Below are positions 15,490-20,402 of a stretch of 44,286 nucleotides of DNA, in pieces. The DNA is taken from NCBI GenBank assembly GCA_007118895.1, contig SKQS01000011.1:1-44286 (forward strand), given 5' to 3'. Under the pieces are notes generated by a model. That model did not search any database. It worked only from the letters and a program-made list of their open reading frames with translations, and was not told the DNA's origin. The stretch is from Wenzhouxiangella sp. Its GTDB lineage: Bacteria; Pseudomonadota; Gammaproteobacteria; Xanthomonadales; Wenzhouxiangellaceae. The number at the start of each line of letters is the position of its first letter. Within the stretch, counting starts at the first letter, position 1. Position numbers and translations under genes: made by a program.

Positions 15490-16218
15490 ATGGAAAAGCA
15501 TTTCGATCAGCATATCTCCCGGCAATTCAACCAGGAGCTGGAAAAGCTGCGCCAGGACGTGATGGCCATGGGCGGGCTGGCCGAGGAAATGGTTGAAGGG
15601 TCCATTCGTGCCGTGGTGGAAGGTGATTCCGATCTGGCTCACCGGATGATCGAGCTCGACGATCGGGTCAACACCATGGAAAAGGACATCGATGGCTACT
15701 GCACGATGATTCTGGCTCGCCGCCAGCCCACCGCCAGCGATCTGCGCCTGGTGCTGGCGATCATCAAGACCGTCAATGACCTGGAGCGAATCGGCGATGA
15801 GGCGGAAAAAATCGCCAAGATGGCCATTCGCCTGATTGAAAGCGATCGTCCGCGAAACAACTTCCGCGAGCTGGAGAACATGGCCCAGACGGTCCGGTCC
15901 ATGCTGCATGATGCTTTGGACGGTTTCGCCCGCATGGTGCCCGAAGTGGCAGTGGCCCTGGTGCGGGAAGATGAAAAGGTCGATGCCGAGTATGAGGCGA
16001 TCCTGCGCCAGTATTACACCTACCTGGTCGAGGAGCCACGTACCACCCGGCGGGTGCTGGATTGTATCTGGATTGCCCGCTCTCTGGAGCGGATCGGTGA
16101 CCATGCCAAGAACATCGGCGAGTACATCATCTACCTGGTCGAAGGCAAGGACCTGCGCCACGCCTCGCCGGAGGAGATGGAAAAGACCATTCTGCAGGAT
16201 GATCGCAACGACTCCTGA
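15490..16218 (+). CDS. phoU: Phosphate signalling protein
   Basis: The 242-residue protein consists of two homologous three-helix PhoU repeats (about residues 10-110 and 115-220). Acidic metal-binding motifs are present in each, for example NDLERIGDEAEKIAK and RSLERIGDHAKNIGEY. PhoU links the Pst transporter to PhoR and holds the kinase in its inhibitory state when phosphate is plentiful. A good ribosome binding site (GAGGAAAGGA, 15478-15487) precedes the ATG. It is the last gene of the phosphate block; a hairpin overlaps its stop codon. Confidence 0.96.
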   Translation: MEKHFDQHISRQFNQELEKLRQDVMAMGGLAEEMVEGSIRAVVEGDSDLAHRMIELDDRVNTMEKDIDGYCTMILARRQPTASDLRLVLAIIKTVNDLERIGDEAEKIAKMAIRLIESDRPRNNFRELENMAQTVRSMLHDALDGFARMVPEVAVALVREDEKVDAEYEAILRQYYTYLVEEPRTTRRVLDCIWIARSLERIGDHAKNIGEYIIYLVEGKDLRHASPEEMEKTILQDDRNDS

Positions 16219-16247: not shown

Positions 16248-16493
16248 CCCACCTTATTCACCATGGTGCCTACTGCGGAGCCGCCAGGCCCCGCGTTTAG
16301 GGCATTTCGCTCGGTCGCGGGTCCTCACCGTACGGGTGAGTACGCCTCCGGCCCGCTCGGTCGCGAAGTGCCCCAGCCACAGGACCTGGCGGCCCCTCAC
16401 GCGCTATTCGTTCTTCCGGCTGGCGCTTCTTGCCTGCGGCAAATCGCACCAGCCTACAGAACGGCGCGACGGAACTATGGCGAATAAGGTGGG
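16248..16493. repeat. 246-bp multi-hairpin element with terminal inverted repeats (MITE/REP-like)
   Basis: The element occupies most of the gene-free stretch 16219-16579. Its ends are 19-bp inverted repeats that match at 17 positions (CCCACCTTATTCACCATGG, 16248-16266; partner 16475-16493). Inside are nested stems: GCCGCCAGGCCC (16280-16291) with 16382-16393, GGGCATTTCGC (16300-16310) with 16363-16373, and CTCACC (16324-16329) with 16335-16340. A separate small hairpin is TTGCC/GGCAA (16430-16442). The 11-mer GCTCGGTCGCG occurs twice (16309-16319, 16355-16365). No convincing gene lies within. The end sequence recurs at 26266-26301. It looks like a small non-autonomous mobile or structural repeat; no target duplication is evident. 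Confidence 0.7.
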
Positions 16494-16514: not shown

Positions 16515-16575
16515 ATTCTCGGGTTTTGAGAATGCTGGCTGTTCAAATACCTCCACGATAAAACTTGGAGGTATT
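16515..16575 (+). promoter_or_regulatory. Tandem hairpin leader that hides the ribosome binding site of the 50-residue peptide gene
   Basis: Two perfect stems lie in tandem. ATTCTC (16515-16520) pairs with GAGAAT (16528-16533). AATACCTCCA (16546-16555) pairs with TGGAGGTATT (16566-16575) across a 10-base loop. The second stem contains the whole Shine-Dalgarno sequence GGAGG (16567-16571), whose complement CCTCC sits in the left arm. Translation of the gene at 16580 should therefore be off unless the stem opens. The dyad could instead be a DNA operator. Confidence 0.65.
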
Positions 16576-16579
16576 CATC

Positions 16580-16732
16580 ATGCAACAGGCAATTCAGAAC
16601 CCATCCCCCCGCCGCCCCCGGTTGCTCATGCTCGCGCGCCTCATTGCCGGGGAAATCGTCGCGTTGGGCGGTCTGGCGCTGGCCCTTGGCTCGGGCTTGC
16701 TGCTGCTGGTCATCGCCAGTGCTTCTACCTGA
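16580..16732 (+). CDS. Small hydrophobic membrane peptide, 50 residues, unknown function
   Basis: ATG 16580 follows GGAGG at 16567-16571 with ideal spacing and opens a frame of 50 codons. The peptide has a polar, proline/arginine-rich N-terminus (NPSPRRPRLLML, residues 7-18). One long hydrophobic segment follows, rich in Leu, Ala and Gly (about residues 20-47), and it ends in SAST. This predicts a single-pass membrane protein with its basic end in the cytoplasm. I recognise no family. Size, hydrophobicity and the occluded ribosome binding site resemble type I toxins or regulated small membrane proteins, but I see no antisense RNA and the resemblance is only by form. It is isolated, convergent with the aminotransferase, and lies behind the 246-bp element. 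Confidence 0.6.
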   Translation: MQQAIQNPSPRRPRLLMLARLIAGEIVALGGLALALGSGLLLLVIASAST

Positions 16733-16779: not shown

Positions 16780-16812
16780 AAAACGCAACCAAAACGCGAT
16801 CAGAACGCGATC
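16780..16812. repeat. Three tandem 11-bp repeats
   Basis: AAAACGCAACC, AAAACGCGATC and AGAACGCGATC follow each other without gaps and run into the 3' end of the aminotransferase gene. The 11-bp period is about one helical turn, so a protein could bind one face, but a simple slippage product is equally possible. Confidence 0.55.
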
Positions 16813-18313
16813 AGGCGGCCTTCTCGACTGCCTTGGTAGGTCCGTTGAGCAGGGCGTCGCGGGTTGCCTCGACGATCATTTCCACTTCGTCGCTGGTGAT
16901 GTCGAAACACGGCGTGTAGCGCAGCGAGTTCTCGCCACCGTGGATGACGTTGATGCCATGACGCCGCAGGTATTCCTCGGTTGAGTTGTCGCCGTATGCC
17001 TTGTAACGCCGCGAGTCCAGCTCTACAGAGAACAACAGGCCGGTGCCCTGAACCCGGGTAATGCGGCCACCGAGCTCGTCCTTGAGCTTGTTGAAACGCT
17101 CGACAAACTCTTCGCCGCGGGTGACGATGTTTTCTCGAAGCGCCGGGCTGATCTGGCCCAGCACCGTGGTGCCGACATCCAGTGCCCTGGGATTGGCGGT
17201 CATGGTGTTGCCGTAGACGCCCTTGCGATAAAGCCCGGCGGCACGTTTGTTCATCGCCAGTACCGACAGCGGATACTGGCCGGCGTTGAGGGCCTTGGAA
17301 TAGGTTTCCATGTCTGGTTCTTCCAGACCCTGGAACCCGGGATAGTCGACGATCGACAGCACGCCCTGGGCACGCAGGCCGGACTGGATCGAATCCATCA
17401 ACAGCAAGGTGCCGTGTTCGCGGGTCAGCTGGCGGGCCAGCCGGTAGAATTCCGGATCAAGCGAAGCGCCGGGATTGCCTTCGCCCATCACCGGCTCCAT
17501 GAACAGCGCCTCGATGAAGATGCGGTTGTTGTCGGCCCAGGCAAAGACCTGCTGCAGTTGTTCGGAGTTGTTGGGTTCGACCGTGATCAGATTGTCCTCG
17601 TCCCGGTACGAGGCGAGGTGCTTTAGGTAGGTCTTGCGGGTCGAGTCGGAATACCTGGCCGGTCGGTCGGTTCTGCCGTGAAAGCCGCCGCTCAGTGACA
17701 GCCGATGGATTCGATGGCCGGCCCTGGGAGCGCCCGGGTCGGTCATCAGCTTGGCGTTGATGTCGGCGATGCGGGCAGCCACGGTGACTGACTCGGATCC
17801 TGAGTTCATGCACAGGAAGTGACTGAATGGACAGCCGGAATCGCGATCGTGGCCGATTTCCCGACGAAGCGCCTCGACGAAGCGCAGGTGCGAGAAGCTC
17901 GGCGTCATGATATTGGCCATGACATGGGGCTGGTTCATGGCCTGGAGCACGGTCGACGGCGCATGGCCGAGCCCAAGCATGCCGTAGCCGCCGGAGTCGT
18001 GCAGCACCGCGCCCTTGGCGGTCACGATCCATGGGCCGCGCCCGGCTAGCGCCACGTAGGGGTTGACCGCATCGTCGGCATAGAAATTGACAAAGCCCGA
18101 CTGCAACGCTTCTCTCTGAACGGCCTCATCGACCCCGACCAGCTCGGGGTAGGCCGACTGCCAGCACTCGATTACCCCCAGGGCGGTGTCAACGGCCTGG
18201 TGCAGACGCTCATCGCGATCCGCAAAGCGTTCGATCACCGCATCAGCCAGTCCGGTGGTCATCGGCTCGCCACCAAGGCTGCGTAACTGGGAAAGCTTCT
18301 CCAACACGGTCAT
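16811..18313 (-). CDS. Class III PLP aminotransferase, possibly L-lysine 6-aminotransferase
   Basis: The 500-residue fold-type I aminotransferase has the glycine/serine phosphate-cup motif SGSES (residues 171-175), the pyridine-nitrogen aspartate Asp307, and the PLP lysine Lys340 in YSKALNAG. The usual DEVQ motif is DSIQ here, which sets it apart from ornithine- and GABA-type enzymes. Two observations suggest a lysine 6-aminotransferase: an ALDH7 enzyme of the piperideine-6-carboxylate dehydrogenase type is encoded at the head of the same five-gene minus-strand run, and both lengths (about 500 and 509) fit that enzyme pair. This assignment is inference. ATG 18313 is chosen over an upstream in-frame start because it lies outside the preceding glycosyltransferase gene. 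Confidence 0.85.
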   Translation of the reverse strand: MTVLEKLSQLRSLGGEPMTTGLADAVIERFADRDERLHQAVDTALGVIECWQSAYPELVGVDEAVQREALQSGFVNFYADDAVNPYVALAGRGPWIVTAKGAVLHDSGGYGMLGLGHAPSTVLQAMNQPHVMANIMTPSFSHLRFVEALRREIGHDRDSGCPFSHFLCMNSGSESVTVAARIADINAKLMTDPGAPRAGHRIHRLSLSGGFHGRTDRPARYSDSTRKTYLKHLASYRDEDNLITVEPNNSEQLQQVFAWADNNRIFIEALFMEPVMGEGNPGASLDPEFYRLARQLTREHGTLLLMDSIQSGLRAQGVLSIVDYPGFQGLEEPDMETYSKALNAGQYPLSVLAMNKRAAGLYRKGVYGNTMTANPRALDVGTTVLGQISPALRENIVTRGEEFVERFNKLKDELGGRITRVQGTGLLFSVELDSRRYKAYGDNSTEEYLRRHGINVIHGGENSLRYTPCFDITSDEVEMIVEATRDALLNGPTKAVEKAA

Positions 18314-18353
18314 TGGCGTGCTCCGGTCAATAGGCAGGAAACCCGATATTCTA

Positions 18354-20402
18354 TCAGTCCGCCTGCTCGTCGGTAAGAGGTTCAAGCCTCAACAGCAGCT
18401 GTTCCAGGTCCTCGGAGAATTCCTCGACACGACCGATCGTCGCTGCCACCTGCTGACGGATATCCTGACGCCGCTGGCGCCACTGATCTATGGAGCCTGC
18501 AAGCCGGTTGGCCCGGGACACGTAATCGGATTGGTCGGCGGCAACCCATTCGGGAAAACCGGCAAACTCGAGCAGGCTGGCAGTCTGCCGGCCAACCATG
18601 GTCTGTCCGGCCAGGGTGATCACGGGCACCCCCATCCACAGCGCGTCGGCGCTGGTGGCGCAGCCGGAGAACGGGAAGGTGTCCAGCGCCAGGTCAATAT
18701 CGCGATAAGCGGCGAGCACATCGAGGTGGCTGGCCCATCCGATCAGTTGGACCCGGCCCATCGGCAAGCCGCGCGCGGCAGCGCGTTGGGCAAATTCGCG
18801 CCGGATCTGCGGATCGTCGTATTGCAGGCAGCGCAGTTCCAGTTCCGCATCCGGCAGGGCCTGCATGATCTGCACCCAGCAGTCGAGCAACGGGTCGGAG
18901 ATCTTGGCCAGGCGATTGAAGCAGGCCAGCCGCAGCGGACCCCGGCGGAGGTCTCCAGGCTCCGGGCAGCCGTCCGGCGGCGTGTAGCACAGCCGTCCAC
19001 GGGGCAGGGGGATCATGCGCGTGTTTGGCTTTGGGTCGAGCTCCGGACTGAGCGCCCGGTCGGTCAGGAAGTAATCAATTGCATCGATCCCGGTGGGATG
19101 GAAATAATCCAGCCAGCTGACCTGGACCGGGGCCAGCCGTCGAGCGAATGCACGTAGCACATGATGCGGACCGTGTCCGGTCAGGTCCACCGCCACGTCG
19201 AGCCGGTCAGCGGAGATCTGCTCCACCAGCCCGTCTTCGTCGTTGCCATCAAGCCGGATCAGGCGATCGGCTGCTGCCGCGAAGCGAGCGGTTGCCTGAT
19301 CAGTGGCCGGATGGGTCTGGTACAGCCAGTGCTCGACGCCGTTGCGAGGAAAAGCTTCCAGTACTGCAGCGAAGAACGACTCCATCGGGCCGGACAAAAG
19401 ACGCGGCGAGATCCAGCCAATGCGTAGGATGTTTCCGGCGCGTTGCGGTCTCGGTGGTGCCGGCTCAGGTGCGTGGGCAGCAGCCCACTGTTTATGGACC
19501 TCGGCCAGGGCCTGGCCGGTGGCTTCGGGCAGATGCTGTCTGGCAATCAGCCAGTTGCTGTGAGCCTGCCAGTAATCCGGATGGCGTTCGAGCAGCGTTT
19601 CATAGACCCGGCAGGCCTGGTCGGCCAGCCCGCGGGTCAGCAGGTTGACGGCCAGGAAGAGACGCAGATCGCGCTCGCCTTCGAGCCGGTCGCTCAGCGC
19701 TTCGGCAACTCGCGCGGCGGTTATTGCCGCCGGGGCCTGCTCCAGTCGCCGAACCCAGTCGAGCGCGGCTGGTGGTGAAGATGCCGCCAGGCGGTCGGCG
19801 ATATCCAGCGCCAGTCTATCGGCCGACTCATCGGCATCGTTGGCTGTCAGGGCGGCAATCAGTCGGGTCAGCGCGGGCAGCAGCTGTCGCGCCTGTTCAA
19901 GCACCACGGCGGGAATCTCCGGCAGTCGATCAGGTGCGTTGCGAGCCACCGCAATCAGCCATTCCAGCCGGCAGTTGATGTCGTGGGGATTGATTTGAAG
20001 TGCCCGGGCCAGGGACTGCTCGGCGGCCGACCAGTCTTCCAGGCCGGCCTGTGCCAGGCCGAGATTGAACCAGGCCCCGAACGCGCCGGGCATGGCGCCG
20101 GCCAGCTCGCTCGCATCGCGCGCTGCTGCTTCGTAGCGCTCCAGGGCCAGCAATGCCGTGGAGCGATTGGTCAGGAGTTCCGGGCGCCGGCCGATCCGGG
20201 CAATGGCCCGGTCGATCAGCTTCAGTGCCGACTCGGGCCTGCCCTGGTGCAGCCTCAATGCGGCCAGCATGTACAGCGCCTCGGGATGCCCCGGCGATTT
20301 GTCCAGTACCTTGCGATAAAGCGCCTCGGCACGTTCGAGCTGGCCGGCGCGGTGTGCGCCTACCGCCTCGCTCAGTCGTTTCTGCAGTTTGGCTGGATGC
20401 AT
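18354..20402 (-). CDS. TPR protein with GT41 (O-GlcNAc transferase-like) glycosyltransferase domain
   Basis: The 682-residue protein starts with tetratricopeptide repeats (about residues 1-140, for example AEALYRKVLDKSPGHPEALYMLAALRLHQGRPESAL), followed by a helical middle region. The C-terminal half is a GT41 domain: RIGWISPRL, VDLTGHGPHHVLRAFARRLAPVQVSWLDY, ACFNRLAKISD, and DLALDTFPFSGCATSADALWMGVPVITL. These match the bacterial SPINDLY/OGT family, which transfers GlcNAc or another sugar to Ser/Thr of proteins such as flagellin. The substrate is unknown and no flagellar or S-layer genes are near. It starts 11 bp behind pyrD on the same strand. There is no signal peptide, so it is cytoplasmic. 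Confidence 0.88.
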   Translation of the reverse strand: MHPAKLQKRLSEAVGAHRAGQLERAEALYRKVLDKSPGHPEALYMLAALRLHQGRPESALKLIDRAIARIGRRPELLTNRSTALLALERYEAAARDASELAGAMPGAFGAWFNLGLAQAGLEDWSAAEQSLARALQINPHDINCRLEWLIAVARNAPDRLPEIPAVVLEQARQLLPALTRLIAALTANDADESADRLALDIADRLAASSPPAALDWVRRLEQAPAAITAARVAEALSDRLEGERDLRLFLAVNLLTRGLADQACRVYETLLERHPDYWQAHSNWLIARQHLPEATGQALAEVHKQWAAAHAPEPAPPRPQRAGNILRIGWISPRLLSGPMESFFAAVLEAFPRNGVEHWLYQTHPATDQATARFAAAADRLIRLDGNDEDGLVEQISADRLDVAVDLTGHGPHHVLRAFARRLAPVQVSWLDYFHPTGIDAIDYFLTDRALSPELDPKPNTRMIPLPRGRLCYTPPDGCPEPGDLRRGPLRLACFNRLAKISDPLLDCWVQIMQALPDAELELRCLQYDDPQIRREFAQRAAARGLPMGRVQLIGWASHLDVLAAYRDIDLALDTFPFSGCATSADALWMGVPVITLAGQTMVGRQTASLLEFAGFPEWVAADQSDYVSRANRLAGSIDQWRQRRQDIRQQVAATIGRVEEFSEDLEQLLLRLEPLTDEQAD

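Follow-up and report, generated by a model that had tools for sequence, protein, structure and literature searches.

We found a gene for a 50-residue membrane peptide in Wenzhouxiangella sp. that is preceded by an SOS-type operator, a conserved promoter and a hairpin able to close its ribosome-binding site (RBS), with the end of the promoter lying in the 5′ arm of that hairpin. The gene probably encodes an SOS-induced small membrane protein that is shielded from read-through transcription by this promoter-in-hairpin device. It is located in a window of 44,286 nucleotides, the whole stretch of DNA that was analysed, which comes from a genome of 3.4 Mb in 288 contigs. The features of the locus are as follows.

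15490–16218, + strand: phoU (Pfam PhoU, 1.9e-46), the upstream neighbour on the same strand, from which read-through probably comes, kept in this place across the family.
16248–16492, no strand assigned: MITE-like repeat with terminal inverted repeats and 55 matches in its own genome.
16516–16532, + strand: LexA/SOS-type operator, TTCTCGGGTTTTGAGAA, corresponding to a 6-bp stem noted earlier; its motif is shared with repair genes.
16539–16545, + strand: 5′ strand of an outer helix, pairing with 16581–16588 (start codon and codons 2–3) in the RNA fold.
16540–16548, + strand: extended −10 element, TGTTCAAAT (TGnTnnAAT), at a fixed spacing from the box.
16546–16555, + strand: 5′ arm of the hairpin, AATACCTCCA, overlapping the −10 end and the discriminator; perfect complement of 16566–16575.
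16555, + strand: A, the predicted SOS transcription start, 7 nt past the −10 (prediction only).
16566–16575, + strand: 3′ arm of the hairpin, TGGAGGTATT, holding the Shine–Dalgarno (SD) sequence GGAGG at 16567–16571.
16580–16732, + strand: gene for the 50-aa small membrane protein, with a basic N-terminal tail, one C-terminal membrane helix and a conserved [GA]E-x-x-A-L.
16811–18385, − strand: class-III aminotransferase ORF (Pfam Aminotran_3, 3.8e-38), convergent and downstream of the peptide gene; a mechanical ORF whose true start may be internal.

The peptide family and its neighbourhood

The gene comprises 50 codons, from an ATG at 16580 to 16732. The preliminary description had read its product as a one-helix membrane peptide, and this was borne out by an AlphaFold model with one helix at residues 11–49 (mean pLDDT 87). 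In being hydrophobic, shorter than about 60 residues and limited to one membrane helix, the peptide has the size and form of a type I toxin. Searches of Pfam and NCBIfam with 23 members gave no match to any family, known toxins included, in keeping with the earlier failure to recognise one.

An initial search returned a pair of weakly similar relatives from the corresponding locus; a match in L004 was rejected because it was part of an SMC-like protein. When the surroundings of phoU were inspected in 30 family genomes, most were found to contain a homologous ORF of 50–61 aa, and a profile search enlarged the family and added three non-identical leaders (from L134, L140 and L141). Homologous peptides with the same promoter were present in about 30 genomes, mostly flanked by phoU and the aminotransferase gene; Wenzhouxiangella sp. 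15190 and W. sediminis contributed two loci of the family. The members share a basic N-terminal tail, a single C-terminal membrane helix and the [GA]E-x-x-A-L core; a genome scan with the full peptide alignment gave no usable conserved stretch. In close pairs the dN/dS ratio (Nei–Gojobori) was well below 1, with dN of 0.16–0.46 versus dS of 0.70–1.50, showing that the peptide is kept in relatives. The analysis supports the earlier proposal of a regulated and previously undescribed small membrane protein.

Of the candidates beyond the family, all but one were peptide-profile matches inside long ORFs and were rejected. The exception, an 81-aa membrane protein (L163 of genome G194, from 1501 onward on the minus strand), was reached through the promoter pattern; it comes from a different family of the order and has the same box, followed by the extended −10, ahead of its gene. 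Its KEFIALSAV segment resembles the helix of the peptide family, which suggests at the sequence level that the family may be wider.

The surroundings of the gene are compact. Its orientation relative to phoU flips among genomes, and the leader travels with the peptide gene. At 11 of 23 loci phoU or the aminotransferase gene reads in the direction of the peptide gene and its stop codon is followed by the operator after 0–21 nt; in 3 loci the operator is placed directly at that stop codon. Gaps of 0–21 nt leave a terminator no space, so read-through is expected; entry of upstream transcription, as in insulation of the T4 gene e type, was inferred from this missing terminator space. In the source genome a MITE-like repeat of 245 bp is inserted between phoU and the operator. 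Its ends are CACCTTATTC...GAATAAGGTG, and two near-full-length copies, with 96% and 84% identity, occur in the same genome.

The SOS-type operator and the promoter

The small stem just upstream of the hairpin (ATTCTC/GAGAAT, 16515–16520 with 16528–16533) is exact, as had been reported, but it reads better as a LexA-type operator at 16516–16532 than as an RNA stem. It has no T-run, it is conserved in sequence and not in pairing, and multiple copies stand before repair genes; for these reasons it was rejected as an RNA structure or terminator and read as an operator. Of 43 family genomes, 38 had the pattern TTCTCRNNTTYTGAGAA, at 1–6 copies each, and the reversed-pattern control gave 0. In the source genome the box also precedes recA (contig 38), and further copies precede recA, imuA-like genes, Lhr-like helicases, a nuclease-like gene and the gene for a conserved protein of 86 aa. 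The domain evidence for these box-linked genes consisted of RecA and DEAD/Lhr domains, and of weak RecA similarity in the case of ImuA. recA and imuA are classic LexA targets. The operator is thus common to recA and other canonical SOS genes, as in an SOS regulon.

We found that LexA is present and that its recognition helix reads SPNAAQ[CS]H in all 29 LexA proteins read from box-bearing genomes. Among the box-less genomes, the helix was SPNAAESH in G001 and unrelated in G002, G003 and G007, indicating that a cognate LexA is present and co-varies with the operator. In L086–L115 and L146–L152 the LexA helix varied by genus (SPNAAQ[CS]H, SPNAAESH or YKSRGSVH), tracking the presence or absence of TTCTC-type boxes; as far as sequences can tell, this pattern among genera is a natural case of operator–repressor co-evolution. 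One gap in the case is that lexA itself had no close copy of the box ahead of it in the small number of genomes inspected, where scan coverage was partial; autoregulation of lexA is common, not universal. The box at 16516–16532 is most likely the LexA/SOS box of the family, with LexA binding predicted. In the open-access literature we found no paper containing both 'Wenzhouxiangella' and 'LexA'.

Downstream of the box, an extended −10 of the form TGnTnnAAT occupies leader positions 8–16, counted from the box end, across 26 homologues. G9 and T16 were invariant (26/26), and T8 and T11 nearly so (25/26 each). The unrelated 86-aa SOS gene had the same element at the same spacing in all 13 of its leaders, and nuclease-like genes carry CATAAT at leader positions 10–15. 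No −35 hexamers were recognisable. Seven bases past the −10, at leader position 23, 18 of 26 homologues have an A; at the source locus this is the predicted start, A16555, with which the 5′ arm ends.

The 5′ strand of the RBS stem (16546–16555) therefore overlaps the gene's own promoter, whose −10 lies at 16540–16548. Since the −10 and the predicted start are within the 5′ arm, the SOS RNA should lack that arm and the lock should act on read-through RNA. The RBS had earlier been described as locked. The hairpin can indeed close it, but the gene's own mRNA, with a predicted start at about 16555, would be without the 5′ arm. This promoter overlap, the operator nature of the small stem and the upstream MITE-like repeat had all been missed.

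The box was also seen at other genes. In L067, L070 and L081, recA has a GTG start about 170–190 nt downstream of the box, with a second A+T-rich, promoter-like stretch closer to the gene. A conserved protein of 80–105 aa (IVGK.I.GVIARPG...DDGSVVEFVSPRSDRLL; L066:1568-1837, contig 19 of the source genome) is preceded by the same box and extended −10; the majority of family genomes show this arrangement, one further case (L165) comes from a different family of the order, and the protein has no Pfam match. LexA-type boxes upstream of ORFs resembling Cas3 helicase/HD proteins in L073 (G016) and L040 (G017) hint at possible SOS control of a CRISPR–Cas operon.

The hairpin over the ribosome-binding site

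The perfect 10-bp stem of the preliminary description, 16546–16555 with 16566–16575 around the GGAGG, is exact in the sequence, and this hairpin occurs only once in the genome. The GGAGG lies eight bases ahead of the ATG, and pairing comparable to the outer helix was found in many homologues. None of 200 shuffles was as stable as the folded region, which had a minimum free energy of −26.9 kcal/mol (z −3.8). The median cost of opening the stretch from SD to AUG was 10.7 kcal/mol in read-through RNA, 4.5 in RNA from the SOS start and 5.8 when the pre-start bases were shuffled; at the source locus it was 15.5 versus 6.4 kcal/mol for read-through and SOS-start RNA (37 °C). Furthermore, a median of 52% of the SD-to-AUG bases were paired with pre-start bases in read-through RNA, compared to 20% in shuffles and 2% in the 86-aa genes. 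About 4 of the 26 homologues (L017, L018, L030 and L049) had little predicted RBS closure, and in L030 the hairpin adjoins the SD. Upstream gap and lock strength were weakly correlated (Spearman p 0.13 with the source locus, 0.04 without it), which is only suggestive of a stronger lock at shorter gaps.

An SD held within a stem would also fit an RNA thermometer or a small protein controlled by an sRNA, both of which had been put forward before. An opening cost of 15.5 kcal/mol at 37 °C is high for a thermometer, the stem being too stable for that role, and no Rfam match was obtained. No sRNA gene was seen at the locus, no support was found for antisense or sRNA control, and the position of the promoter provides a simpler switch. 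We regard this explanation as very improbable.

To score the co-variation of the hairpin we used a swap test, in which leader positions 8–24 were exchanged among homologues and their pairing with the RBS region was scored. Own pre-start bases paired with the own RBS region at −16.4 kcal/mol, compared to −11.1 kcal/mol for the bases of other homologues (z −9.2; 0 of 20,000 permutations). The effect was retained with 19 representatives (z −7.9) and persisted for cuts 17 to 26. The 86-aa SOS genes, which have the same promoter, gave no signal (z −1.2); they were rejected as a second insulated family and hence served as the control. The sequence and register of the stem varied widely, with CCGTCAC/GTGACGG, CCATCAC/GTGATGG, CCATCATC/GATGATGG and ACCTCCA/TGGAGGT among the pairs of arms. 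Two-sided changes (G-C, A-T and T-A) were found at one stem pair; such changes were counted in a register-aware manner because the MAFFT alignment of the leaders misplaces the arms. Further cases at the genus level were in agreement, for example G009, with GGTCTCC/GGAGACC at the SD, and G015, with CCATC/GATGG. In the relatives the stem is thus kept through its pairing and not its sequence. Judging by these comparisons, the hairpin is under selection and the pre-start bases are what matters.

The swap test was equally strong on the antisense strand, so by itself it cannot separate RNA pairing from a DNA palindrome, and counts of G-U and A-C pairs and duplex energies gave no resolution between sense and antisense. 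The palindrome might accordingly work as DNA, as the site of a second regulator or as a mirrored antisense promoter with RNA pairing as a by-product; the stems are almost purely Watson–Crick, and in some homologues the −10 sequence has a mirror copy on the opposite strand. However, stem sequence and register vary between genomes while pairing with the SD and AUG persists, which ill suits a fixed protein site, and the mirrored −10 is missing in many homologues, including the source locus. We consider a role at the DNA level improbable, and read the stem as an RNA hairpin.

Proposed mechanism and known systems

The features that were computed (the hairpin, its conservation and co-variation, the operator, the promoter spacing and the missing terminator space) suggest the following mechanism. 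LexA bound at 16516–16532 would repress a promoter with its −10 at 16540–16548 and its start at about A16555, and this promoter would sit within the 5′ arm of a hairpin that has the RBS as its 3′ arm. Read-through RNA, from the phoU operon here and from the aminotransferase gene where the orientation is flipped, would have both arms and would not be translated. After DNA damage LexA would be lost, RNA would begin at the end of the 5′ arm, no hairpin could form and the peptide would be made. The product would be a single-helix inner-membrane protein of the SOS regulon. Its most likely role is to hold back growth or division while repair proceeds, whether by inhibiting division (like SidA or YneA) or by depolarising the membrane (like TisB or DinQ). 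We lean towards an inhibitor of growth or division and make no choice between the two. Leaky expression would be guarded against because the peptide would slow growth or division.

The fold-back inhibition of IS10/Tn10, in which transcripts from outside hide the RBS and those from the inside promoter do not, shares this read-through logic, although there it concerns the transposase of a mobile element and here an SOS gene. To our knowledge there is no earlier case of a promoter-in-hairpin outside phages and transposons, and our search of the open-access literature gave no paper on bacteria that brings together LexA and a read-through hairpin hiding the RBS. In phage T4, the RBS of gene e or I-TevI is hidden in RNA that starts at upstream promoters, and open RNA arises from late promoters within the 5′ strand of the hairpin (PMC3014915, PMC2988022). 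As in gene e, I-TevI, segB and mobE, the RBS here is closed in read-through RNA, the gene's own promoter lies in the 5′ strand and its own RNA is predicted to be without the lock. Unlike the T4 promoters, which depend on the phage late sigma factor, the present one is a chromosomal SOS promoter under predicted LexA control, and it serves a small membrane protein.

Another group of SOS genes was compared as well. Escherichia coli tisB–istR1 and dinQ–agrB share LexA control, a small hydrophobic inner-membrane product and a translation-limiting RNA structure with our locus, with no sequence family match between the products. The tisB +1 mRNA is inert and the +42 mRNA active (PMC7708055), and of the dinQ RNAs the +44 RNA alone is translated (PMC3567139). 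Their primary transcripts are thus inert, processed and accompanied by an antisense RNA; for our locus we predict an open primary transcript, and we found no antisense RNA. The peptide could nevertheless be a type I toxin like TisB, in which case the SOS transcript would start upstream of 16540, carry the hairpin and be inert until processing or loss of an antisense RNA; SOS control, the tiny hydrophobic product and a sequestered RBS all fit tisB and dinQ (PMC7708055, PMC3567139). Against this, an upstream start would require a different promoter, because the −10 is within or directly next to the 5′ arm and keeps the spacing that other SOS genes have. In compact loci, moreover, 0–21 nt upstream and often less than 60 nt downstream are available, too little for a separate antitoxin gene. 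As noted before, no antisense gene is visible beside the peptide gene, although an overlapping or distant RNA may exist, and no antisense RNA family matched. A TisB-like toxin is in our view unlikely, and the promoter-in-hairpin device remains our preferred reading.

SOS-induced, single-pass small membrane proteins that inhibit division include SidA of Caulobacter, YneA of Bacillus and SosA of Staphylococcus (PMC4211646, PMC13396833, PMC6851548). The peptide resembles them in being small, single-pass and predicted to be SOS-induced, a likeness of description with no recognised sequence relation. Known SOS membrane peptides either block the divisome, as does SidA (PMC4211646), or depolarise membranes, as do TisB and DinQ.

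Collectively, we see about an even chance that the chromosome here carries an SOS gene whose membrane product harms its own cell and which is guarded without antisense RNA: a LexA promoter in the 5′ arm of the RBS hairpin would provide two independent locks, LexA on transcription and fold-back on read-through, within about 50 bp. If so, type I toxin control would have an alternative that needs no antitoxin, and bacteria would be applying the promoter-in-RBS-hairpin trick of phage T4 to a DNA-damage gene of their own. For the Wenzhouxiangellaceae, the outcome includes an SOS operator, the outline of a small regulon and a new family of putative SOS membrane peptides, whose target, the divisome or the membrane potential, is directly testable.
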